A stretch of DNA of 64,000 nt. It comes from Diplonema papillatum (Eukaryota > Euglenozoa > Diplonemea > Diplonemida > Diplonemidae). Where the stretch lies: positions 1-64,000 of the forward strand of contig JAPJBO010000528.1 in the NCBI GenBank assembly GCA_030068145.1, given 5' to 3'. Below the pieces are notes generated by a model. That model did not search any database. It was not told where the DNA came from and saw only the letters and a program-made list of their open reading frames with translations. This document shows, one piece after another, positions 14,527 through 54,572 of the stretch. The position numbers and the translations under genes were made by a program. Positions within the stretch are counted from its first letter, which is position 1. Every line of letters begins with the position of its first letter.

Positions 14527-15056
14527 ATCACAACCTTCCCCGATGGGAGTTTCGCCGTGTCGTGGCTGGACCACGGGGCGAATACGACGATGCGCACCCG
14601 CCGTTGCACTTCTGACGGCACTTGCGACGACCCGATTCTCGACTTGTACAGCGGTGCCCTGCTGCGCTACCACTCGTCCACCTCCAAGGACTACCTAGTC
14701 GTGTATACGGTGTTGCATCACTCGCTCGACGGGTGGACGATGATCGCAAGGTTTGCGGATCTCATGGTACTCGAAGGAGACCCGGTGCCGCTGGCGTACA
14801 TTCCTAACTTGTCGGACCTGTACACGGCGCAGTCGATAATCATGTATCGTCAGGGGTTCTTGGTTGTCTGGACCGGCGTTGACGACAGCGGAGAGGGCGT
14901 CAATGCGCGCCTCTTCCTGCGCAACGGCACCGCGCTCGGCGAGATGGTGGTGGCCAACCAGCCCACGGAGGGTGCGCAATATCACCCCCACCTATTCGGG
15001 TATGGGTTACCTTTCTCTTCAGGGGACGCCGTCGGAAACGCAAAAATCGTTGTCCG
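14527..15056 (+). CDS. Type I membrane protein, exon 2 (ectodomain)
   Basis: The acceptor is CATCATACAG|ATC at 14,527 with a plausible branch string (CTTACTCAC) upstream. The exon encodes about 150-175 residues: ITTFPDGSFAVSWLDHG, then LYSGALLRYHS, DYLVVYTVLHH, GFLVVWTGVDDSGEG and ARLFLRNGTALGEMVV. These alternating strand-like blocks with an aromatic after each hydrophobic run suggest a repeated beta-structure ectodomain. The 3' limit is uncertain: a phase-1 donor at 14,971 (GAGG|GTGCGC) would match the phase of the acceptor at 15,999, but the frame stays open to a MITE-A remnant at 15,057. No intron signal is compelling here. Confidence 0.6.
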
Positions 15057-15140
15057 GCTCGAAGCAAGCAAATGTCCTCGAGGAGCTGCCTTGTGCTTCG
15101 AAGGAGGCTAACGGGGAGAAACAATACAACTACAAAGTGC
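15057..15140 (-). mobile_element. MITE family A remnant
   Basis: CCTCGAGGAGCTGCCTTGTGCTTCGAAGGAGGCTA matches one terminus of MITE family A in minus orientation; the rest is lost. It lies at the end of exon 2 of the membrane-protein gene. Confidence 0.65.
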
Positions 15141-15399
15141 CTTAACTGTGGCGAGCAACGAACAGTTTTACCCAGCAAATCTACCCCAAAAAAACCTTAT
15201 ATTAGGGCGGAAACAACCCCGCACCACGTGAAGCACCGCAAGTGTCACGAAACCCAAGCACTACTCTACAAGAAAATACATAAAAACGTGGACAACAGAC
15301 GGGTACGGGCTACAAGGCAACCCCTGCTCAACTTGTAGATCGTGGGGGGCCCAAGACTGCGCTCCACGAAGGAATGTACTTGGTGTCCGTCACAAACAG

Positions 15400-15560
15400 T
15401 CCCGGATATGGCCAGCCATAACCCATAACGAAAGCGTGCACCAAATATACAACCCGTAACCATATAGCCCTTTTTTGCTCGAAGAGAACCCATTCATGAA
15501 CGGTCACACGGAGTCCCCAAACCCCCGGAATTTCAAGCGAACTTTAACTCTACGACGCGG
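15400..15560 (+). repeat. Dispersed repeat G, second copy
   Basis: Direct repeat of about 14,090-14,240 (AACGAAAGCG, CCAAATATACAACCCGTAACC, CATTCATGAACGGTCACACGG), ending in the recurrent TTTCAAGCGAACTTT motif. It lies in the presumed second intron of the membrane-protein gene. Confidence 0.8.
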
Positions 15561-15999
15561 GTTCTGTATCAGTAATTAAAAGTGTATGCGAGCGGATCGG
15601 CTACCAAGAGAAAGGCTGCGGAGTGGGCATCCTGGCTCAAGAATGAGTTAAAGTCTAGCCCGACACGTGAGGCTTCCTATCCAAATCCTGTTACCGTAAT
15701 TGGAATGATGTTGGACTAAAGCTGGAACGGGTAAAATGACAGACCGGGTAAAACCTGGAACACGGGTGGTGAAAGTGACAAGTGGGCAGTACTTCGATTC
15801 CGACAGTACCCACTCAAAGTCCTGAACTTAAACACACACGCGCACAACACCAGAGAAGGGCAGCTGGCGCACAGCTGTGACGTGAGGAAGCCAACGGCCT
15901 GGGCCGTACTCCGCAACAGGGGTTACCCAGACATGAATTCTACACGCGCACAACACAGGCCGGTACATCTCCCTGGTAGCGCGTTTCCGGCTTTCGTAG

Positions 16000-16412
16000 T
16001 GTACTCCTCGCTGGTTGAGGGAGAATACTCTGTCATCGCCGATACAGTTATCATTACATTCCCCCCGACGCCACCAACGGAGGCTCCCCCGTCACTGACG
16101 CCATCAACCGCGGCCCCTCCGTCACAGTCTCCTCCGTCGGAGGATACGAGCGCCCCGTCGACAGCCACGCCCGCGACGGAGACGGCAAGTCCCGAGCGAA
16201 GAGACGCCGACGATGACGATGACGACCAACTACCGCCGGGTGCCATCGTCGGCATCGTCATCGGGGTGTTGGCGGCGGTGTTGGTGGTGGTCGCGGCGGT
16301 CGTGTGGTTCACCAGGGCGCCCGCGCAACCGTCCAACGGCGTGGAGCAACTTCCCGCGCACGAAGACAAGGAAATGAAGCCTACCGAGCCCGCAGTGCAC
16401 GGCCCGGCGTAA
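16000..16412 (+). CDS. Type I membrane protein, last exon (stalk, TM helix, tail)
   Basis: The proposed acceptor is GGCTTTCGTAG|TG. The exon encodes VYSSLVEGEYSVIADTV, then a ~50-residue Pro/Ser/Thr-rich stalk ending in a run of Asp. The transmembrane helix AIVGIVIGVLAAVLVVVAAV follows, then a ~33-residue cytoplasmic tail (HEDKEMKPTEP) and TAA. This is the expected C-terminus of a single-pass surface protein; a signal peptide 3 kb upstream in the same orientation fits one split gene. Three decayed copies of the TM/tail segment follow. Splice joins are inferred, not proven. Confidence 0.7.
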
Positions 16413-16449
16413 GCAAGACTTTCGAGAAAAACGAAGACTTTAAAGCTCC

Positions 16450-17455
16450 GGAGGTTCAAGCGAACTCTCTAAAAGCGGTGCAAATATGGTCCGCCAACCC
16501 TCCCGCGATCATGTCCCTACGACTTGATGCTGGCATCACACATGCGTGCAATCCAGTGGACTATGATTGCACTGGATTTCACACTGGATTCGCGGGGGTG
16601 CCATCGTCGGCATCGTCGTCGGGGTGTTGGCGGCGGTGTTGGTGGTGGCCGCGGCGGTCGTGTGGCTCACCACGTCCAACGGCGGGAAGCAACTTCCCGT
16701 GCACGAAGGCAAGGAAATGAAGCCTACAGAGCCGCAGTGCACGGCCCGGCGTAGGCAAGACTTTCGATGGAGACTTTGAAGCTCCGGAGCTTCAAGCGAA
16801 GTCTCACTCTAAAAATTCATTGCACTCTAAAATGGTGCAAGTATTCCCGCGATAATGTCTATAGGCAGAACCTACGACTTGGTGCTACCATCACACTGGA
16901 TTCGCGCGAGTGACACATCTGGACTCGCGGGGGTGCCATCGTCGTCGGGGTGTTGGTGGCGGTGCTGGTGGTGGTCGTGGCGGTCGTGTGGTTCACCAGG
17001 GCGCCCGCGCAGCCGTCCAACGGCGTGAAGCAACTTCTCGCGCATGAAGACAAGGAAATGAAGCCTACCGAGCCCGCAGTGCACGGCTCGGTGTAAGCAA
17101 GACTTTCGAGAAAAACGAAAACTTTAAAGCTCCGGAGTTTCAAGCGAACTCTCTAAAAGTGGTGCAAATATGGTCCGCCAACCCACCCGCGATCATGTCT
17201 ATAGGCCGAACCTACGACTTGAACCTAACATGGAACATGCGTGCAATCCAGTGTATGATCGCACTGGATTTCACACTGGATTCGCGGGGGTGCTATCGTC
17301 GGCATCGTCGTCGGGGTGTTGGTGGCGGTGCTTGTGGTGGCCGCGGCGGTCGTGTGGTTCACCAAAGCGAAGCAACTTCCCCCGCGCACGAGGGCAAGGA
17401 AATGAAGCCTACAGAGCCCGCAGTGCACGGCCCAAGGCAAGACTTTCGAGAAAAA
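16450..17455 (+). pseudogene. Three decayed tandem copies of the membrane-anchor exon end
   Basis: The GGTGCCATCG start of the TM segment recurs at 16,239 (gene), 16,597, 16,932 and 17,289, spacing 335-358 bp. Each copy still encodes a hydrophobic helix of the GAIVGIVVGVLAAVLVV type. Copy 2 has a 1-base loss near the stop, copy 3 reads through to a matching stop (KEMKPTEPAVHGSV), and copy 4 has lost part of the tail. The spacers contain the recurrent TTTCAAGCGAACTCT motif. They may be pseudo-exons or alternative last exons. Confidence 0.8.
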
Positions 17456-17495
17456 TGGAGTGGGTCCAAAGCGACTCTCCCCATCTGGATTCGCC

Positions 17496-17928
17496 GGGGG
17501 GAAAATCTTAGTTTCGTGTTCAGGCGCTACTTGCCTCTAAGTGTTTGATGCTAGCATCAAGTCTTCTTCGCGGAATGCAGAGTCTTTTTTCTTCTTTTTT
17601 TCTTTTTTTCCGTTTTCTGTTTTTTCTGTTCTTTCTTTCGTTGTCGCCAATTTCTTTTTTCTCCTTTTACTTCTAATTTTAACTTTAATTTTCTTTACCA
17701 TGGTATTTTTGGACTTTCTGGTGCCGTAGAGTAGTTCTTCTTTCTCTATGCCGCCCACGTCGATGTTCGTTTAGCAGCGGCTGCCGAATCATGCCGTGGC
17801 ACCGTCCTTTTGTGCGTCTGCCTTGCTGAAGAAGTGTGGGAAAGGAGTCCAGGACTCCGTGGTTTGAAACCATGTACTATGGCTTCACTTCCTCCTCCCT
17901 TCGTCCGTTTTTCTTTAAAAAAAGGGGG
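17496..17928 (-). repeat. Penelope-like element flanking repeat (pLTR), downstream copy
   Basis: 433 bp nearly identical to 23,355-23,790 in direct orientation; the differences I see are small indels. It starts GGGGGGAAAATCTTAG and ends in an A-run then G-run. It contains the perfect palindrome CTTGATGCTAGCATCAAG. Direct flanking repeats of this sort are typical of Penelope-like elements. Confidence 0.9.
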
Positions 17929-17994
17929 TTTACAAATTGGGTTGTGGCTCGTAACCAACCGCCACGGGGCACTACTTCCACCAGGTGAAAGTGT

Positions 17995-20900
17995 TTACGC
18001 TTTCTCGAGAGAGATGACGTAGCCATTGGTTGTGAATCTCCTGGCACATTCCTCCCATGAGAGTACGGATACTTGCTGGTCGTCGTAGCATACCCATTCA
18101 TCGTCTTCCTTTAACACGGTATAGTAATGACCTGCCGTTGCTCTTCCGGTGTGGATAATGAAGCCTTTTACCGTGTAGGAGTCTTCACCGATCAGTATGG
18201 TTTGTCGGATCGGGGTGCGGGCTGGTATTTTTATTTCTTCGCGTGTTTTTTTCGATAGCTGTGCTCGTTGCAGTAGTACATCCATTTGCTTTGGAAATGT
18301 GTAATCTTCCTTCGTGGATCCAACGGTCTTTTTGTTACAGGTGCTACAGGGGAAGTCGTCCACTTTGGTTGCTCTCTTGTTTTGCACTTTCTTTATCAGA
18401 TCCTCAACTGACTCGGTGTAGGGCTTCTCCCTGTTTTTGAGTTCAAGCATCAGGAACGGTTCTGACGCCGGCGATGCTCGTGAAGACTCTTTGCATATTG
18501 TGCACGTTGTCAAACGGGAGTATGTCACCGTAGCTTGGTCGTCGTCGTCGCCCGTCACGCAGGAGCGTATCCACGTCAGCAGTTCGTGCACGTCCCGATG
18601 CGCGGAGTCGTCTGCCGTCGTGTTGAACACGAGGCTCCGGAGTGTGGCCATTGTACCGTGGATGTTTTGGCCTGCGTCGAAATCCGTGAACAGCCTCTGC
18701 ACCATCTGCTGGTTGGTGTCCAGGTGCGTTAGGTTTGCGAGTTGTAGTCGGAAGGACGTCCTTCGCGCCAGGAACTGCACGCTGGCGGCGAAGAAACATG
18801 AGTTGCGAATGTTCGTTATGCCGTTGCGTCCAGGTGGGTTTGTTGGTTTCGTCGCAGGGTGCGTAGTGCTGGTGGGTTCGGATTTGTGCGGCGACGTAGA
18901 CTGCGGCGAGGTTCTCCCGGGTGGATGTTTCGGTGAGCCGTCGGGCGGTTGCGGCGTGCGGATGCTGATGTACGGTTTTTCCTCGTTGGTCGGGCGACCT
19001 TCGTCATAGGCCTTTCCGACGAAGTGGTGAAACCGTGACAGCACTCGCGCATCTAATTCGTACTTTCCGTACGTTTGTGCCACGAACGTGTCGAACGTGC
19101 GCCGGAGTTCCCGTCCAGAGAATCCTCGGTTCCGAAGTCTGTAGTACACCTTCATGACCTCGACCTTCAGATCTGGCATGTTGTTGCAGATGCGCGCTGC
19201 TCGGATCAGTGCGCCTTTGAAGATCGAGGTTCCGGTGTTTCGTGGTACCGTGGATTCGACGTGGGTGTACTTTATCGGATTCCAGGGGAATTCCTCACCC
19301 TTGTCCAGGACAGACATCCGAATGAAGTCCGTCTTGTCATTCCTCTCCATCCGGATCCGCATCCCCAAAAAGACTACGTCGTCGACACCTTTCGACGTTT
19401 CACCATACTCCATGCCGTAGATATCTTCCGGCGGTGGTCGAACACCCCAGGTCAGGAAGTCGTCAATGAATCTGACGCTGTCGGCGTGATTCCTGGCCTC
19501 TTCTTGCAATCCTTTCGCGACCAGGCCGTCGATGTACTGCTTTTCGCACCAGTAGCAGTATAAGTTGGCGAGGTCTGGGCTTGCATTGCCGCCCATGGGG
19601 ATTCCGGATACCTGCTGGTAGCATGTTCCACCGTTGGTGACGAAGGTGTTACCAACAATGAAGCTGACCAGTGCTCGAATCTCTTCGACATTGTAGGAGG
19701 TCGTGTTCGATTCGTCTGGTTTCCCAAATTCGAAACGGTGTTTGGCGCGCTGGGCTTCTACGTTCGCTCCTTTTTCGGACTTCATGTACTCGAAAGCCTC
19801 TGCAACCGCAGACATAACATAGTCAACAATCTGCTTCTGCGGAATCTTCGTGTACATCTCTTTGAAGTCGAAGGTTCGTGGCGCTTTTTTGCGCAGTCGA
19901 GCGTAGTTCGTCTTTATGTGTACTGCTACGTCATCGACCGACTCCACGACGAAGAAACGACGTATCCCCGTTTGCGAAAACGCCGCTTCGTCCTTGCTTC
20001 GGAGCGTTGCTAGCACCAGCTTCAGCAAACCGGAGGCTTCTTGGTGTGCAGGGGTTGTGGATGCACGTGTCTTCATTCGTTTCTTGTCGCGGCCTTTTTC
20101 GTCTCGGTCCTTCTGTTCGTCTTTCTTCTCAACGTTTCCTTTCTCCGACACGCCGGCAATGTACCGCATCCGTGGTTCGGGTTTGTGGAGCTTCGGGATG
20201 CCGTAAAGGTACGGTAGGTTGTCGGTGTGTACGAACTTGTGTGACTTGTTGAAGTCACGGTGTCGTTCGAGCACGTCATCAATCGACTCGCCAACTTCCT
20301 GGTACGTTGAGCTCTGTTGTAATTCGTCCCGTAAGAGCTCCTTGTATTTTTCCTTGCAGATAAACCCGAAGTCATGGGACGTCTTATCTACAGGGAGAAA
20401 CACGAGGTGCTCCTGGAGCTTCTTCAGGGTGCGTAAGGCGTCTCGGAGTTGAGGTTCGTCGGTGTGCGCGTTGAGAGTTCCAAGGACGGCGTCGAACTCT
20501 TCGACCAGAGTTGTTGAAAATCTGGTCTTCTCGTCCTCGCTCGCCTTCGGGAAATTCGAGTTCACGAATTCTTCGACGTCGTGTCTTATCGAGTCGTACA
20601 TAGTCATCGGACTACTCGCGACCCGGTATTTTCGTCCTTTTCGAAAAAGTGAAAGGAGGGCTTCGTCAGTCTTCAGATCCGTTGCAAGTCCTAAAGCGTG
20701 TCCACCAAGATCCGGGCGGTGTGGTGTCATATGCTGCATGCATGGGCAAACCGAACCTGAGCTAGTCGGTTGATTCGCTTCGTAACTTACTTCGGTGACG
20801 TTGCTGACGAGGGTTACCAAAGGTGGCTTCAGGCGGTTGCTCACCATGAGGTTTTTGAGGACGGCCGGGTTGGGGCACGTTTCGCGAACCCGTGCGCGTG

Positions 20901-22515
20901 ACAGGACGCCGGCAATTGCTGTCCGGTCTTGTGCCGGGTGATGATGCGTCAGCTTGAAATACCGTCGTGGGGGGGCCGCCGGTTTCTCGGTTCTGTTGCG
21001 GATGCGCGCACTGAGGAGTCGTTCAAGGATTCGTACTTTGTCTGTGACGTCTTTTCCTTGAACGAAGGTTCTCAGCCACGTGCGTAGGCGGAGGGCGCGA
21101 TTGGGATGCCATGTTGACATGTCGTAGGTTCCCAGTCGGTCCTGTGGGAGTGTCAACAGGTGGTCCAACTGTTTCCTCAACCCAGAACAGAAGCCCGGGG
21201 AGGTGTCAATGTGGAGTTCGTCGTTTTCCATGCGGTGCCAGACGCTGCCGTCGGTGCGTCGTTTGCGGAGGCGTTGCGGTGGACGTTGCCTCCTCTTCTT
21301 CTTTGCAGCCTTGTTGTTGACCCTCTCTCCCTGTCGCCGATTCGTCATGTTCAATGGCGGGTTTAGCCATTTGATCCAAAACTCTTCGATTGGGAGAGCC
21401 ACGCGCGCGAAGTCAGCGGGCTGTACGTACAGCCGTTCCGGAACATTCTGTATCGGACACGCGTAGAGCTTCCGGCCTCGCTTTCGTAATTGTTGCGATA
21501 CACGGTTGCCCTTTGAGTTCCGATTTTCCCAGTGCTTGCTGTTTCGCACCTCGGCCGTCTTCGACGTCTGACCCACGTAGAGGACGGTGCCCCCTTCGTT
21601 CAGAAGTACGTAGATCACTCCCGTCGTGCTGTCGGCGACGTCGCTTCGGTCGGTTCCGCATTTGTTCCGCCCATTCGACACTTTTGTGCCGTATCGCTTC
21701 CAGAAGATTTCGATCGCGCTTTTTCTTCGGCTTCCGTGATCGTCGTCGTCGTCGTCAGGGTGGCGGCGCGTGTGGACAAAAGCGGCGAGGAAACGAGTGT
21801 CAGATTTGGGCCGGTTTGTTTTTTGTTTTCGCCGTTCTTTTCTGTTGGCGCGTGCACTTTTATTGTTTTTTTTGTTTTTTTGGTTTTTTTGGTTTTTTTC
21901 GTTTTGTTTTTTTGCCTCAGAGTCACGTGGTCGTTCTTCCGATTTTTCTTGGCGGCGTTTTCGTGCTTGTGCTCTGGGTTTTTCTTTTTGCGGCCTCTTT
22001 TGTTCGCGCTCCTTTTGTCGATCGTTGTGAACCGGGTGGCTAGTCGTTCCACGGTTCCTCTGTTCTGGGGCTGCTTGGGGTCTGGAAAGACCTTTCTCGC
22101 AGGGCTTCTTTGTTTTGGGGGCCGCTTGGGGTCTGGGGTGACCTTTGTCGCAGCGTTTCTCTTCCTTTCCCTCTCTCCGTGTCGCTGGGAAACGACCAAC
22201 AAGTTCAGGTCCTTCCTGGGAGTGGCGCTGTCGGAAAATAAGGCATTCGTCATCTGTCCGAATCGGATATCCGACGACTACCTTAGCGTCTGTTCCGTCG
22301 AGTTCATCATCAAAGTAGTTAACTTTCATGTTATCGGACTCGGTGGTGGTAGACGACGCAGCACTCCGCCTCGAATGGTTATGCTTCCTAGGCACTTTCA
22401 ATGGCGATTTAGAGACGGGTGTGGGATTTTTTATTTTGGGTCTATCAACGTGTCGGGCTGACAGGTCCAAAAGCGGTCCTGCGGCGTTTTTTAGGGCCAC
22501 ACGGCAAGGGGCCAT
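17995..22515 (-). CDS. Penelope-like retroelement polyprotein: GIY-YIG nuclease, RT and ubiquitin-specific protease
   Basis: One uninterrupted 1506-aa protein from ATG. Residues 1-290 are basic and low-complexity. About 298-390 is a GIY-YIG endonuclease (GVIYVLL...LYVGQT, an Arg in the following helix, then IEEFWIKWLNPPLN). About 588-610 has a CPC...H...GH motif found before some Penelope-type RTs. The RT has YLYGIPKLHK (~770), motif A TFDFKEMYTKIP (~882), motif B GIPMGGNASP (~972) and motif C RFIDDFL (~1018). Residues ~1226-1506 look like a ubiquitin-specific protease: Cys box GITNIRNSCFFAASVQFL (Cys ~1240, oxyanion Asn ~1235), two CxxC pairs (TCTIC, PCSTC) as in USP fingers, His box AGHYYTV (~1463) and YDD. 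An N-terminal nuclease is the permuted order of the Naiad/Chlamys group. A protease fusion is not something I know in this class. The ORF appears intact. Confidence 0.95.
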   Translation of the reverse strand: MAPCRVALKNAAGPLLDLSARHVDRPKIKNPTPVSKSPLKVPRKHNHSRRSAASSTTTESDNMKVNYFDDELDGTDAKVVVGYPIRTDDECLIFRQRHSQEGPELVGRFPATRREGKEEKRCDKGHPRPQAAPKTKKPCEKGLSRPQAAPEQRNRGTTSHPVHNDRQKEREQKRPQKEKPRAQARKRRQEKSEERPRDSEAKKQNEKNQKNQKNKKNNKSARANRKERRKQKTNRPKSDTRFLAAFVHTRRHPDDDDDDHGSRRKSAIEIFWKRYGTKVSNGRNKCGTDRSDVADSTTGVIYVLLNEGGTVLYVGQTSKTAEVRNSKHWENRNSKGNRVSQQLRKRGRKLYACPIQNVPERLYVQPADFARVALPIEEFWIKWLNPPLNMTNRRQGERVNNKAAKKKRRQRPPQRLRKRRTDGSVWHRMENDELHIDTSPGFCSGLRKQLDHLLTLPQDRLGTYDMSTWHPNRALRLRTWLRTFVQGKDVTDKVRILERLLSARIRNRTEKPAAPPRRYFKLTHHHPAQDRTAIAGVLSRARVRETCPNPAVLKNLMVSNRLKPPLVTLVSNVTEVSYEANQPTSSGSVCPCMQHMTPHRPDLGGHALGLATDLKTDEALLSLFRKGRKYRVASSPMTMYDSIRHDVEEFVNSNFPKASEDEKTRFSTTLVEEFDAVLGTLNAHTDEPQLRDALRTLKKLQEHLVFLPVDKTSHDFGFICKEKYKELLRDELQQSSTYQEVGESIDDVLERHRDFNKSHKFVHTDNLPYLYGIPKLHKPEPRMRYIAGVSEKGNVEKKDEQKDRDEKGRDKKRMKTRASTTPAHQEASGLLKLVLATLRSKDEAAFSQTGIRRFFVVESVDDVAVHIKTNYARLRKKAPRTFDFKEMYTKIPQKQIVDYVMSAVAEAFEYMKSEKGANVEAQRAKHRFEFGKPDESNTTSYNVEEIRALVSFIVGNTFVTNGGTCYQQVSGIPMGGNASPDLANLYCYWCEKQYIDGLVAKGLQEEARNHADSVRFIDDFLTWGVRPPPEDIYGMEYGETSKGVDDVVFLGMRIRMERNDKTDFIRMSVLDKGEEFPWNPIKYTHVESTVPRNTGTSIFKGALIRAARICNNMPDLKVEVMKVYYRLRNRGFSGRELRRTFDTFVAQTYGKYELDARVLSRFHHFVGKAYDEGRPTNEEKPYISIRTPQPPDGSPKHPPGRTSPQSTSPHKSEPTSTTHPATKPTNPPGRNGITNIRNSCFFAASVQFLARRTSFRLQLANLTHLDTNQQMVQRLFTDFDAGQNIHGTMATLRSLVFNTTADDSAHRDVHELLTWIRSCVTGDDDDQATVTYSRLTTCTICKESSRASPASEPFLMLELKNREKPYTESVEDLIKKVQNKRATKVDDFPCSTCNKKTVGSTKEDYTFPKQMDVLLQRAQLSKKTREEIKIPARTPIRQTILIGEDSYTVKGFIIHTGRATAGHYYTVLKEDDEWVCYDDQQVSVLSWEECARRFTTNGYVISLEKA

Positions 22516-23354
22516 CGTGTGGTTACAACATCCATGAGGTCGGTATCAGTTCGGGTCTCCGTCGTTGCCCGGGGTTCTGGTTTCCCTGGTCTTGCTGCAC
22601 TGGTGTGGATGGCACCTGTGCTTTTCTGTACCCTTTTTAGTTGGGGTATTTTTGCTTAGAAAGGACCCTGGAGTTCGTCCGTTCGTCTTCTTCCTGTCAG
22701 TTGTGAATGGCTGCCCCGACAAGAGCCACTGACGGGGAGTTGGCTTGGGGCTCGCTCAAAGGTTGTTCTAAGCTGGGGGAAAAAGTGGGGCGCAGGAAGG
22801 TTGACAGCCTTCCTCTCTGACGCGGGGTTGCGGGGCGGGGGTAAAATAAAACTTTTACTTTGCATCGGGGCCGGTACCGTATGGCGCTCGAAAGTACTGT
22901 AGTGGTACCGGCCGCGGCCAACAAAGGGATGCGGGGTTTTGCTTCCGGCTATCAGTCCCTGTGCTGCAGAGAAGCTGGGACGTCACATTTTGCATCCGGT
23001 AGGCGGGACGGGGGTAGGCAGCTGAGTGCTTTGTTTTCCGTTTCGCCACCCGGAAGACTGTTCTTTGTTGGGAAATGAAGGAGGGAAGAGAATAACTGGC
23101 AATTGACCTTTTCCCGCGTAGACAACGCGGTCCTTTCCAAATCTCGCCTTGTTTTGGGAATTCGGAGGTGGGGTGTTGTCAGTTCGATGCTGTTTATTGG
23201 GCCGTTCTCCTGCCGGTGCTGCTTTACTGCAGTCGGCCAGAGTTTTCCTATCTTCGTAGGTTGTTGGGTATTCCCTTGTTTTTGGGGAACTGTTGTCTTC
23301 TCCATTGGAGAGCAGAGTAAGACCTGTGTCTTCAGAAGACCGGCATACTCCGTA
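22516..23354 (-). other. 5' region of the Penelope-like element
   Basis: About 840 bp between the start codon of the polyprotein and the upstream flanking repeat, presumably the 5' untranslated/internal promoter region. It contains a GGTACC-flanked inverted pair near 22,871-22,907. No ORF is convincing. Confidence 0.6.
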
Positions 23355-23790
23355 GGGGGGAAAATCTTAGTTTCGTGTTCAGGCGCTACTTGCCTCTAAG
23401 TGTTTGATGCTAGCATCAAGTCTTCTTCGCGGAATGCAGAGTCTTTTTTCTTCTTTTTTTCTTTTTTTCCGTTTTCTGTTTTTTCTGTTCTTTCTTTCGT
23501 TGTCGCCAATTTCTTTTTTCTCCTTTTACTTCTAATTTTAACTTTAATTTTCTTTACCATGGTATTTTTGGACTTTCTGGTGCCGTAGAGTAGTTCTTCT
23601 TTCTCTATGCCGCCCACGTCGATGTTCGTTTAGCAGCGGCTGCCGAATCATGCCGTGGCACCGTCCTTTTGTGCGTCTGCCTTGCTGAAGAAGTGTGGGA
23701 AAGGAGTCCAGGACTCCGTGGTTTGAAACCATGTCTACTATGGCTTCACTTCCTCCTCCCTTCGTCCGTTTTTCTTTTAAAAAAAGGGGG
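23355..23790 (-). repeat. Penelope-like element flanking repeat (pLTR), upstream copy
   Basis: Direct repeat of 17,496-17,928 with a 2-base and a 1-base indel and a longer terminal G-run. About 99% identity between the two copies indicates a recent insertion. Confidence 0.9.
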
Positions 23791-23799
23791 GGGGGGACC

Positions 23800-25470
23800 A
23801 CAGGCTCAAGAGTAGGCACATAGTTCCAGATGGCACGAAGCCTTCCGCCCCCATTATTCCTGTCCTGCATAGCGTTGAGCACGGTGTCGGTGAAGTCATT
23901 CATCAACTGCTCCTCCTGCATGCGCCTCATCTCACAGGGTACCCCCTTCCTCACTAGGTGTGAGCTTCGATGCGTCCCCGACCTCTGCGGGAGTTCTCCC
24001 ATCTGTGCGTCTCAGTTTGGATTCAATATTCTACCTCTTCTCTCTCTCAGAAGAAGTCAGCGCGATAGCGATGCAAACAGAATAATATGCAGATGGCTGG
24101 GGACGGGCCCTGGGACTGCAAAACGCTTAGTGCGCACATTGTTTTTTACTCACACAACACAATAAATAACCCATCGACGACCATCACCCGGGGACTTTAA
24201 GCCTCCGGTTTCTCAAGCGAATTTCCACTCAAACAACGAACTGCGAGCACGACATCTCTCCCTCATACCTTTAGGCCCATTCCACGTCACCGGCCAACAT
24301 TCGGCGCAAACAGGCATTATTGCCTCGTCAACACAGCTCCCAGGAACAGGTCAACGAGGCTCTTCGCTGCCTCAGCAGTGTTGCTTTGGGCAATTGCGTA
24401 CCTGCTGCCATCCTTCGATGTGGTAGCCGTGGTAGTTCTCAGGCTCCCTCTCCGGAATCGAGCCCTAGTTCCCCGTTACCCGTTACAGCCACGGTAGTCC
24501 ACTACACTACCTTCAAAAGCTGATAGGGCAGAAGCTCTTGCGGGCTTGCACCGACTTGAAGTCGTGTGTCATCACTCATTTGACCTGCTTCATCTACACA
24601 CCGCTGCTATTGCTAGCGTTGATTCTCGGTCAATGGTATCCACCTCGACGAGGGTAAGCGTGCTGGGGGCAGCCAGAAAGGGACACACAGGAGAGGCGGG
24701 GAGGCTACTCCTTTGATTACTGTGGCGTCGCCTTCGTGGTCAGGAACGAACGAGAGAGTGACCACAGTTGTACACGTCCACACGGTGGTGTCCAGCCTCA
24801 GAAGCTGGAGTTAGGAGAAGGTGTACCCGAGACACCCCCGAAAGTGGGTGTGCTACAACTAAGACCGCGTGCAATTGCACACCCGAAAAGCGGGTGTGGC
24901 ACCGGCTGTTATAACTCCAGCTTTAGCTCCAGCTTCTCCAGAGACTGGGCTCCGCCGCGTAGGAAAGAGGTGTCCCGTTCGCAAATCCTGCAGGAAACAC
25001 CGTGAGTGCATAAAACCGTCACTGCATACCACCGTCAGTGCAAATTCCCGTCAAATTGGGGTCTGGCGGTAATATGCACGAACGTCATGTGCGTACTTTG
25101 CAGTTTCAAGCCTACCCGGCGTCAACAGTCAACCGAACACTCTGAAACCGGAGTTGAACTCTATTAACAATGTTAACCTTAACAAACAAAAACGGAGACC
25201 TGGAAACCCCGGAATCTCAAGCGAACTTGAAAAGGTGTTTCATTCAGCTAATCCCGAGCAGAGCCCCGGCAGGAGCGCGGATCTCCGACTGGATCCGTCA
25301 TTTGTTTCTGGTCAACTCGTTTGGCTGGAGAGCCCTGCCACTGCTCGCCGGGACTGAATACCTGTGTAGCAGAGCATGCGGGGGGGCATGCCAGGCTGGA
25401 AAAGAAGGGGTTTCTTAGATTTGCCCACCCGGTGCCTCAAAAAGTGTCACTTGCAGGGATTCGTTTATTT
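23800..25470. other. Gene-free stretch
   Basis: No supported gene. The recurrent CCGG...TCAAGCGAA motif occurs at 24,191 and 25,195. The segment 24,825-24,910 carries CACACCCGAAAAGCGGGTGTG-type hairpins related to 11,970 and 29,915. CTCCAGCTTTAGCTCCAGC strings here recur before the glutamine-rich gene. Confidence 0.5.
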
Positions 25471-25474
25471 TTTG

Positions 25475-25560
25475 AACCCGAAAAAGTGCCACATTGCAGG
25501 ACTCGAACTCACGACCTTCAAACCTTCCGTTAGGTGAGGCACGTGCTTACATATGACTCG
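25475..25560 (-). ncRNA. tRNA-like sequence, possible SINE head
   Basis: On the minus strand GTCGTGAGTTCGAGTCCTGC is an excellent tRNA T-arm/B-box string. It is followed by a 3' segment GTGGCAC that can pair (one mismatch) with GTGCCTC upstream, then TTTTT. The intervening D and anticodon arms do not fold well, so this is more likely a tRNA-derived repeat or pseudogene than a functional tRNA. Confidence 0.35.
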
Positions 25561-25599
25561 ATGCTAGCATCAGGCATGCATCAGAGCCAGGCTGCTGCC

Positions 25600-26900
25600 C
25601 AAACGCTGAACAAAGACCTTTCGCCAAACACTGCATTGTTGGACACTCCCTGCGAAGAGTTCGCTGCCTTCTAGCTTTTCAGACCGGTTACAACCAGTCC
25701 AGTAGCAGAAGTGTACGCAGCGCCTTTCCGTGTTTCGTTCCTCCCTCTCCCTTACAACCACAGTAGTAGAAGTGTAAACAACGCATTTCCGTGTTTCTTT
25801 CCCCTGGCTTCCACCGTAAAGCGTGGTCCGCGCAATTGGGGTCCGTGTACGGCGCAGGAACACTGTTAAGCTCTGCCTGCGCTTGCAACACCATTCCCCC
25901 GTAGGGGTGGCCGCACCTCTCGCGGGAGAGACCGCCCCCTTGCACTCTAGCTCCCAGGACCCGCTTTTCCCCTCTCCCCCAGCTCCCGCTGCTGGGTAAA
26001 ACATGGTCGACACAATCGGGGGGTTTGTGCAAACGACACCGTGGCACTGTGTTGTGCTTTCCCTCCCGCTTCTGTATTACGTGGTCGGCACAGTAGGGAG
26101 TCTGTGCGTGACGGCTCAGTAGCACTGTTTTGTGCTTTCCCTCGCTTCTGTATTACGTGATCCACACAGTAGGGGGTTTGAGTCCGACGACTCAGTAGCA
26201 CTGTTTTGTGCTTTCCCTTCCGCTTCTGTATTACGTGATCCACACAGTAGGGGGTTTGAGTCCGACGGCTCAGTAGCACTGTTTTGTGCTTTCGGTGCGT
26301 TCGACAGGCCTGTTCTGGCAGGTAACAACCGGTAGCCGTCAGGTAGGCTGCCACGGTGCACAACTCAGAGCCATTGGATGTCAAATGTTGCAGAGTACAA
26401 ACCCCCGTATAAAACTACCGCCCGCTGCGCTGCCAGTAGCAGCCAGCAACCGTCAGGTAGGCTGCCACGGCACACAACCCAAAACCAAACACACCAGCCT
26501 TTCTCTCCCGCTTTTGTTTTCGTACCTCTCGAGCATTGTTTTCCTCACAAGCGCCAGCTTGGGAGGAAATGCTTGACAAAAGCCGCCAGACAAAGAACCA
26601 AAGGGATTTCCAAGTGCTGTAACTACGGAACGGACGAGAGGGTCTACCCCTACACGACAAACCACACAAACAGGTCAAAGTCCTGAGTGAGAAAACAACA
26701 CACGGTGGTGTAAGCGAAGAACAAATCAGATTGTGTTTGTATTGTACTTGCCCCCTCTACCTCTGTATTTCCTCCCTTCCATTCAGAGTCAAAACAGCTA
26801 CGTCGAGTATTTTTTGACCGGTGGTTTTTTTCGTAGTAACAATGCTTTGTAAACACGAAAGAGAATTTCTTCTCGGTGTCGGTCGCAACACTTACAAACA
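25600..26900. repeat. Dispersed repeat F, copy 2, with extension
   Basis: About 25,690-26,480 matches 160-960, including the 77-78 bp tandem units at 26,114-26,330. The extension 26,540-26,790 is matched in inverted orientation by about 39,640-40,060. No gene. Confidence 0.8.
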
Positions 26901-53869: not shown

Positions 53870-54572
53870 CACGCCGGCCGGGACGCTCAACGAGAGCCTC
53901 CTCGGGGAAGAAGAGCGGAAGATGGCGGCGCACCAAGAGTTCGTCCGGATGAAGCGCGGCGAAGGCTTCACGCTGTGGTGCCACCACTCGGACCGCCCGA
54001 AGCCGCCGCGCGCCCACTACTGCCACGTCAGCGGGCAGCTGATCCTCAAGATGGACCACTTCTGCCCGTGGGTCGGCCAGTGCGTCGGCCACTACAACCA
54101 CCGATACTTCCTCCTTTTCCTCCTGTATCTCTGGTTCTCCACAGGCTACGCGTGCCTGTGTATAGGACTCCACTGGCTCGGCGTGCTGGTGAACCCCAAA
54201 GCGGATGAGGCGATGCTGGCCTCAGAGTCCCACGTCATCAATTTGTGCTTCATCGTCTGCATTGCCCTGGTGGTGGCCATTTCGTGCTTCCTCTTTTGGA
54301 GCGGGTTCCTGGCGCTTTCGAACCAGACCACGATCGAGTGGCTGGGGAACAGGCAGCGGGCCGCCGACGCGGCGCGGCAAGGGAAGGTGTTCCGGAACCC
54401 CTTCGACATGGGAATAGTGGACAACCTGCGCGAGGTCTTCGGCCCCCGGAAGCGGGTCTTCGAGATGATGCTGCCCTGCACCGAGCCGCTGCCTTCCGAC
54501 GGGCACCACTGGCGCACCCGCGCGGACAGACATGGGTGGAACGACGCGTTCGTAGTCGATGACGCCCTGTGA
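53870..54572 (+). CDS. DHHC-type protein S-acyltransferase, 3' exon
   Basis: The exon starts after a pyrimidine-rich TTCCTGCAG acceptor, continuing TPAGTLNESLLGEEERK; a later in-frame ATG is at 53,922. The cysteine-rich domain reads CHHSDRPKPPRAHYC then KMDHFCPWVGQCVGHYNHRYF. The catalytic motif is DHFC rather than DHHC, and three of the usual zinc-ligand cysteines are replaced (CHHS for CxxC, then HVSGQL). Two transmembrane segments follow, then the conserved TTIE motif (NQTTIEWLGN) and NPFDMGIVDNLREVFG, as expected after the fourth TM. The catalytic Cys and the PaCCT-like Asn are present. Such enzymes attach palmitate to cysteines of membrane proteins. The first two TM segments must lie in upstream exons, which I do not find; the upstream 1 kb is MITEs and repeats. 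It may be 5'-truncated. Confidence 0.92.

Follow-up and report, generated by a model that had tools for sequence, protein, structure and literature searches.

Craig et al. reportedly described, in 2021, Penelope-like elements in which a GIY-YIG nuclease occupies the N-terminus of the protein, the permuted clade. Placement of the nuclease before the reverse transcriptase (RT) is the mark of this clade, and the element we describe here resembles its members in having a single open reading frame (ORF) with GIY-YIG ahead of the RT. It differs from them in that a linker and a ubiquitin-specific protease (USP) domain come after the RT, followed in two related families (families 2 and 3) by a C2H2-like finger as well. 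Elements of the Penelope/Poseidon clade likewise combine GIY-YIG and RT in one ORF and form pseudo-LTRs from tandem copies, whereas their nuclease is C-terminal and the element studied carries a hammerhead ribozyme (PMC11167929); in positions 15000-26000 around our element, Rfam hammerhead models gave no match up to E 5, and simple core patterns revealed nothing convincing.

Deconjugating proteases of other kinds have been found on selfish elements before, as the original prediction had noted for the Ulp1 and OTU types. Ginger1 carries a C-terminal ubiquitin/SUMO protease (OTU or Ulp1), yet is a DNA transposon with proteases of families other than ours; Mutator elements with Ulp1 and Helitrons with OTU are also published, and a Trichomonas vaginalis protein, which we compare by its description, joins a C19 peptidase to transposase_11, although this is a DNA transposase with no retroelement involved (PMC2836005). 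In the non-LTR elements NeSL and Utopia-1_TSP an RT protein is fused to a deconjugase-type (Ulp1-like) protease, but the RT is of another class, the nuclease is restriction-like and the Ulp1 domain is N-terminal (PMC4640811). Ubiquitination-related motifs are described for Burro, giant Gypsy-like elements (PMC6431247). Among open-licence papers retrieved with Penelope and ubiquitin terms we found none that describes a Penelope-like RT bearing a USP, and in the main text of the Diplonema genome paper the words Penelope and ubiquitin are absent and other retroelements are listed (PMC10161547).

The window analysed here is a stretch of 64,000 nucleotides from the marine, unicellular euglenozoan Diplonema papillatum (contig JAPJBO010000528.1, positions 1 to 64,000); the deposited proteins matched at 100% identity also come from this species. 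The original prediction placed in it one minus-strand ORF combining GIY-YIG, RT and USP, and all three were confirmed, the RT through its motifs and relatives (Table 1). The order within the frame is GIY-YIG nuclease, RT, a variable linker and a C-terminal USP. In the Pfam scan the nuclease scored 26.3 bits (cut-off 22.6). For the RT, whose bounds were drawn by eye on an alignment, the match to Pfam RVT_1 is weak (E 0.042; 14 bits, under the cut-off of 29.6), the NCBIfam scan returned weak group II RT matches and nothing further, and no PDB sequence matched the region up to E 0.1. Its conserved blocks (DK at 710, KLHK at 775, DFxxMY at 883, GIPMGGNASP at 971 and FIDDF at 1016) are largely common to the relatives discussed below, and agree with what we take to be the motifs of Penelope RTs. 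The five Pfam families reported for the protein up to E 1 include neither an integrase nor an RNase H nor a protease of retroviral type.

The Pfam UCH match on which the original prediction depended is present, at 57.1 bits against a cut-off of 23.9 and covering profile positions 2-251 of 254, and on account of its E value of 2.8e-15 we reject chance similarity to USPs. In a single-sequence search of the PDB the best solved human USP was USP15 (E 1.2e-9); the fingers and the His box lie in the significant part of that alignment, and the Cys box was aligned solely in another stretch, of 5 bits. The hallmarks first read from the sequence all proved to be right, namely an oxyanion Asn, N1235, five residues ahead of C1240, CxxC pairs at 1338-1341 and 1390-1393, AGHYY with H1463, and YDD at 1477-1479. 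By USP7 numbering, D1478 rather than D1479 is presumably the Asp of the triad. The domain shares family, catalytic residues and CxxC finger pairs with cellular USPs (USP15, USP12, USP36, USP5, USP46), but it is divergent and fused to an RT.

Table 1. Positions in the window of the element, its protein domains and its predicted protease active site.
Feature	Position	Strand	Remarks
Whole element, 6295 bp	17496..23790	-	sense strand is minus; extent common to copies L003, L008, L010, L014, L015
5' terminal direct repeat (pseudo-LTR)	23355..23790	-	two indels (3 nt) relative to 3' repeat
3' terminal direct repeat (pseudo-LTR)	17496..17930	-	435 bp
Single ORF, 1506 aa (GIY-YIG, RT, USP)	17995..22515	-	frame without internal stop
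GIY-YIG endonuclease domain, residues 299-386	21358..21621	-	PF01541, E 9.2e-6
Reverse transcriptase, ~residues 701-1190	18946..20415	-	motifs; RVT_1 weak
P/S/T-rich linker, residues 1191-1230	18826..18945	-	omega 0.35-0.60 (five pairs of six; one value undefined)
USP (UCH, peptidase C19) domain, residues 1232-1500	18016..18822	-	PF00443, E 2.8e-15; PDB USP15, E 1.2e-9
Codon of nucleophile C1240	18796..18798	-	C in 29/29 covering rows
Codon of H1463	18127..18129	-	H in 29/29 covering rows
Codon of D1478, likely triad Asp	18082..18084	-	D in 28/28 covering rows

The ORF coordinates first given for the locus stand, but the element itself is larger than the ORF and is bounded by terminal direct repeats. 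Apart from their indels and ragged poly-G/C ends, the two 435-bp repeats are identical. Besides the copy in the window, five of those compared (L003, L008, L010, L014 and L015) span repeat to repeat, and five others (L002, L006, L018, L021 and L023) are truncated at the 5' side with the 3' end point unchanged. Two copies lie head to tail on contig C2819, 5850 bp apart; contig C61 holds another such pair, the outer copy of which reaches the contig edge and has a stop; and in L010 a truncated copy and a full copy have one repeat in common. A layout of pseudo-LTRs and partial tandems has been described for Penelope-like elements (PMC11167929, PMC3846280).

The search of the Diplonema genome gave 31 scored matches from 9931 first-look candidates, copy numbers being lower bounds. 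Fifteen of the 31 are full-length, stop-free and ~100% identical to the element, with the USP in frame; the remaining copies include groups at ~92% and 73-74% identity. Since all 15 of these copies keep the USP in frame with the RT, and a further protein, P0012, has RT and USP in one frame, we reject the explanation that the USP belongs to a separate host gene. Of 17 copies examined, six have a run of at least seven C on their 5' side, compared with 0.8% of 5000 50-mers drawn at random from the window, and a preference for poly-C targets is possible; the run is clear only in L006, L022 and L023, because those of L008, L013 and L015 include the element's own C-rich end.

The element shows the traits expected of a Penelope-like element: GIY-YIG and RT (by motifs and relatives) in one ORF, pseudo-LTRs, and tandem and partial-tandem copies. 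Furthermore, the nuclease (residues 299-386) precedes the RT (from ~701), as in the permuted clade. A tree of nine RT rows drawn from the proteins of this analysis, omitting the partial or chimeric P0015 and P0017, branched without resolution. The assignment as a Penelope-like element with a fused USP is well supported, and the locus is best explained as a multicopy Penelope-like retroelement, recently active in Diplonema papillatum, with a USP at the end of its single predicted protein.

Conservation was assessed on 30 tblastn rows from the Diplonema genome, representing 29 distinct copies (L011 and L012 share one). Among the rows that reach them, N1235, C1240, D1308, H1463 and the four Cys of the fingers never vary (29/29), nor do W1474, D1478 and D1479 (28/28). 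The GIY-YIG and RT catalytic residues tested in these rows are kept likewise, the nuclease residues VIY 300-302 and YVG 313-315 being unchanged in 30/30. In-frame stops occur in L016 (at 1451), in L022 (at 221) and in L025-L028, which have a common stop at 21, before the first domain; more stops are present in a number of partial or diverged copies (e.g. those on C40, C321, C238 and C304).

We also estimated omega for six subfamily pairs by the method of Nei and Gojobori with bootstrap bounds, values that are rough because dS is near saturation in most pairs. In five pairs the USP had an omega of 0.09-0.15, the RT one of 0.06-0.09 and the linker one of 0.35-0.54 (one value undefined); in the comparison with the 91% subfamily the values were 0.24, 0.12 and 0.60, respectively. 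The upper bootstrap bound for the USP was at most 0.41 in all six pairs; the USP value exceeded that of the RT in every pair, and the bootstrap intervals of USP and linker overlapped in several. Between families 2 and 3, omega was 0.12 (0.06-0.21) for the USP, 0.58 (0.29-0.91) for the linker and 0.04 for the RT, for which dS is saturated; these two families are 60% identical in the USP and 78% in the RT, the USP thus changing faster. Judged by these comparisons, purifying selection acts on the USP, whose catalytic residues are kept, and we have next to no doubt that the sequences represent a real, selected fusion of RT and USP.

Further fusions of this kind, which the original prediction had suggested seeking, exist in two more Diplonema families and in P0011, P0012 and P0013. 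An RT followed by a USP is found in P0010, from Diplonema, and in P0011 (source lgn), P0012 and P0013 (source ena), all four being 28-34% identical to the window protein over residues 290-1190. P0012 carries the EukProt label Rhum, read as Rhynchopus humris, a diplonemid, and its name marks it as a transcript assembled with Trinity; for this reason its RT and USP, which share one frame, probably lie on one transcript in the source organism. The GIY-YIG domain scores at the cut-off in P0010 and under it in P0013, can be seen in P0011 by alignment only, and is absent from P0012, which is shorter. Penelope elements can hold host DNA between their pseudo-LTRs (PMC3846280), and the USP might on that account be a passenger acquired by read-through and merely tolerated. 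Such a history is scarcely credible in the face of the purifying selection, the invariant catalytic residues and an order of RT and USP that is the same in proteins this far diverged.

A search of the Diplonema genome with the UCH profile scored 149 places from 935 candidates (again lower bounds), a list below which the window family's own score of 57 bits falls. Ninety-five of the 149 form three groups of equal score (11 places at 85.9 bits, 43 at 85.3 and 41 at 76.5), and 18 further places look alike (17 at nearby scores, and L064), leaving 36 others, which include duplicates or single genes hit in two pieces. The 85.3-bit group has 15 frames of 1513-1570 aa and the 76.5-bit group 17 of 1551-1652 aa. 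We read one place per group (L051, L050 and L049), and in all three an RT lies in the same frame; it is on these three places, the scores and the frame lengths that the same-score places are called elements. L049 equals P0010 at 100%, and L050 represents a third Diplonema family, 67% identical to P0010. Sequence comparison thus shows the fusion in three families of Diplonema and in more distant relatives.

By eye, a C2H2-like finger follows the USP at the C-termini of L049, L050, L051 and P0011. As annotated, the protein P0015 (DIPPA_13632) extends from the RT to a zinc finger but skips the USP, through either an annotation artefact or true splicing; loss of the USP from a Diplonema family, as this protein would imply, is rejected, since the genomic frame at L051 (C1135), whose contig has the length given for that of P0015 (65,190), is continuous and contains the USP. 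Viral contigs scanned with alignment A2 held no relative, and a protein search with the same alignment returned three Diplonema proteins only, low-complexity words having perhaps taken up candidates.

How might a USP serve such an element? The RT protein would bind its own RNA, the GIY-YIG domain would cut the target, and reverse transcription would start at the cut, often leaving 5'-truncated copies, with tandem copies yielding pseudo-LTRs. The tethered USP would strip ubiquitin from the RT complex, such that the particle escapes the proteasome for long enough to insert. For another Penelope-like protein, DNA cleavage and an internal start of reverse transcription have been described in vitro (PMC11167929). 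Protection of the element's own RT complex in cis by a tethered deubiquitinase is the simplest reading of the fusion, and one on which our confidence is evenly balanced; a second target might be the ubiquitin carried by chromatin or repair proteins at the cut site. The purpose put forward in the original prediction, removal of ubiquitin from the element's own RT or from host restriction or chromatin factors, is plausible. Because fused relatives are many in the same genome and occur in other sources too, the ubiquitin step is probably part of the element's survival or spread.

The attachment of the USP through a variable linker, within a large protein, would also suit a protease that frees the element's proteins from a polyprotein after a ubiquitin-like GG end. 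We consider such a role very unlikely. Pairs of Gly in the window protein lie at 308, 604, 962 and 975, none of them inside the linker between RT and USP, and the Pfam scan of this protein found no ubiquitin-like domain, both of which disfavour simple self-cleavage. The corresponding linkers of P0010, P0011 and P0012 also lack GG, and P0013 has a single GG at 1781, at the domain edge.

Returning to deubiquitination, the likely substrates can be approached through the structures that the element USPs resemble. A profile of six proteins, five of them with a USP, matched USP36 best (E 2.1e-25, over the whole domain), its other solved-structure matches including USP46, USP12, USP18 (named Ubl carboxyl-terminal hydrolase) and entries that we take to be yeast Ubp8. 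Ubp8 and USP12/46 are chromatin deubiquitinases, and these matches, with that to USP36, would fit a USP acting in trans at the insertion site, where it would deubiquitinate histones, PCNA or repair proteins and so open chromatin or damp damage signalling while the cut is extended. A repair role has been suggested for transposon Ulp1 and OTU domains in the Ginger paper (PMC2836005). The likeness to chromatin USPs is distant, however, and does not fix the substrate, and we hold action in trans to be possible but rather doubtful. The match to USP18, together with active-site motifs that are altered in P0011 and P0013, raises the further alternative that the domain binds without cutting, or acts on SUMO, NEDD8 or an ISG15-like modifier. 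The oxyanion Asn motif is missing from P0013, and in P0011 Asp-Asp is replaced by Asn-Gly, such that the active site may be changed in some relatives; given that Cys, His and Asp are kept in the window family and in L049, L050 and L051 (families 2 and 3), we regard this alternative as improbable for the element. Ubiquitin removal from the element's own complex remains our preferred reading.

The USPs of the deep families are weakly alike (0.8 to 35 bits), in comparison with 236 to 366 bits for the RTs of the same proteins. In a tree of eight element USPs and 13 other Diplonema USPs, the latter being part of the 36 non-element-type hits with the partial domains L065, L066 and L067 left out, the element label needs two changes, and a single change in 34% of bootstraps; long branches meet in this tree. 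A single clade of element USPs has a p-AU of 0.374 for all eight and 0.30 for the five of Diplonema. A single clade is thus not rejected, and the tree is compatible with one capture of the USP or with several.

An RT relative, P0018, is 33% identical to the window RT and has no UCH match. By eye, we observed after its RT, at ~745-860, a pattern of H, D and CG resembling Ulp1 (GHWYTV, SWSCGYWALN), for which profile searches gave no support in Pfam up to E 10 or in the PDB up to E 5. We tentatively entertain, at somewhat less than even confidence, a broader proposal in which the C-terminal slot is a dedicated module for deconjugases (USPs in diplonemids, perhaps Ulp1-like in P0018), removal of a ubiquitin or ubiquitin-like tag is obligatory for retrotransposition, and USPs carried by elements now outnumber the cellular ones in the Diplonema genome.

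The predicted protein would join retrotransposition and ubiquitin removal in one polypeptide, and so poses in testable form the question of whether host ubiquitin systems restrain retroelements and elements counter them; a change of the one residue C1240 would part copying from deubiquitination. There is also a consequence for annotation, in that the deposited proteins Ubiquitin carboxyl-terminal hydrolase 26 (P0003) and putative ubiquitin carboxyl-terminal hydrolase 16 (P0010) are retroelement proteins. Five more Diplonema proteins that match the element, P0005, P0006, P0007, P0016 and P0021, bear the names UNC93-like, dynein intermediate chain, STIP1-like, ribosomal RNA-processing protein 12 and kinesin-like; these may be chimeric gene models or insertions into genes.

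Elsewhere in the window, 16204-17453, adjoining the element, consists of four tandem copies of a ~342 bp unit (repeat families D2, D5 and D9), which are perhaps like the repeated gene ends of the Diplonema genome paper, a paper that also reports scattered 28S pieces (PMC10161547). At 24368-24643, on the minus strand, lies a fragment of eukaryotic SSU rRNA (101 bits, E 8e-27) with stretches of the model missing, and an ORF on the plus strand at 53922-54572 encodes a DHHC palmitoyltransferase domain (E 4.8e-29).
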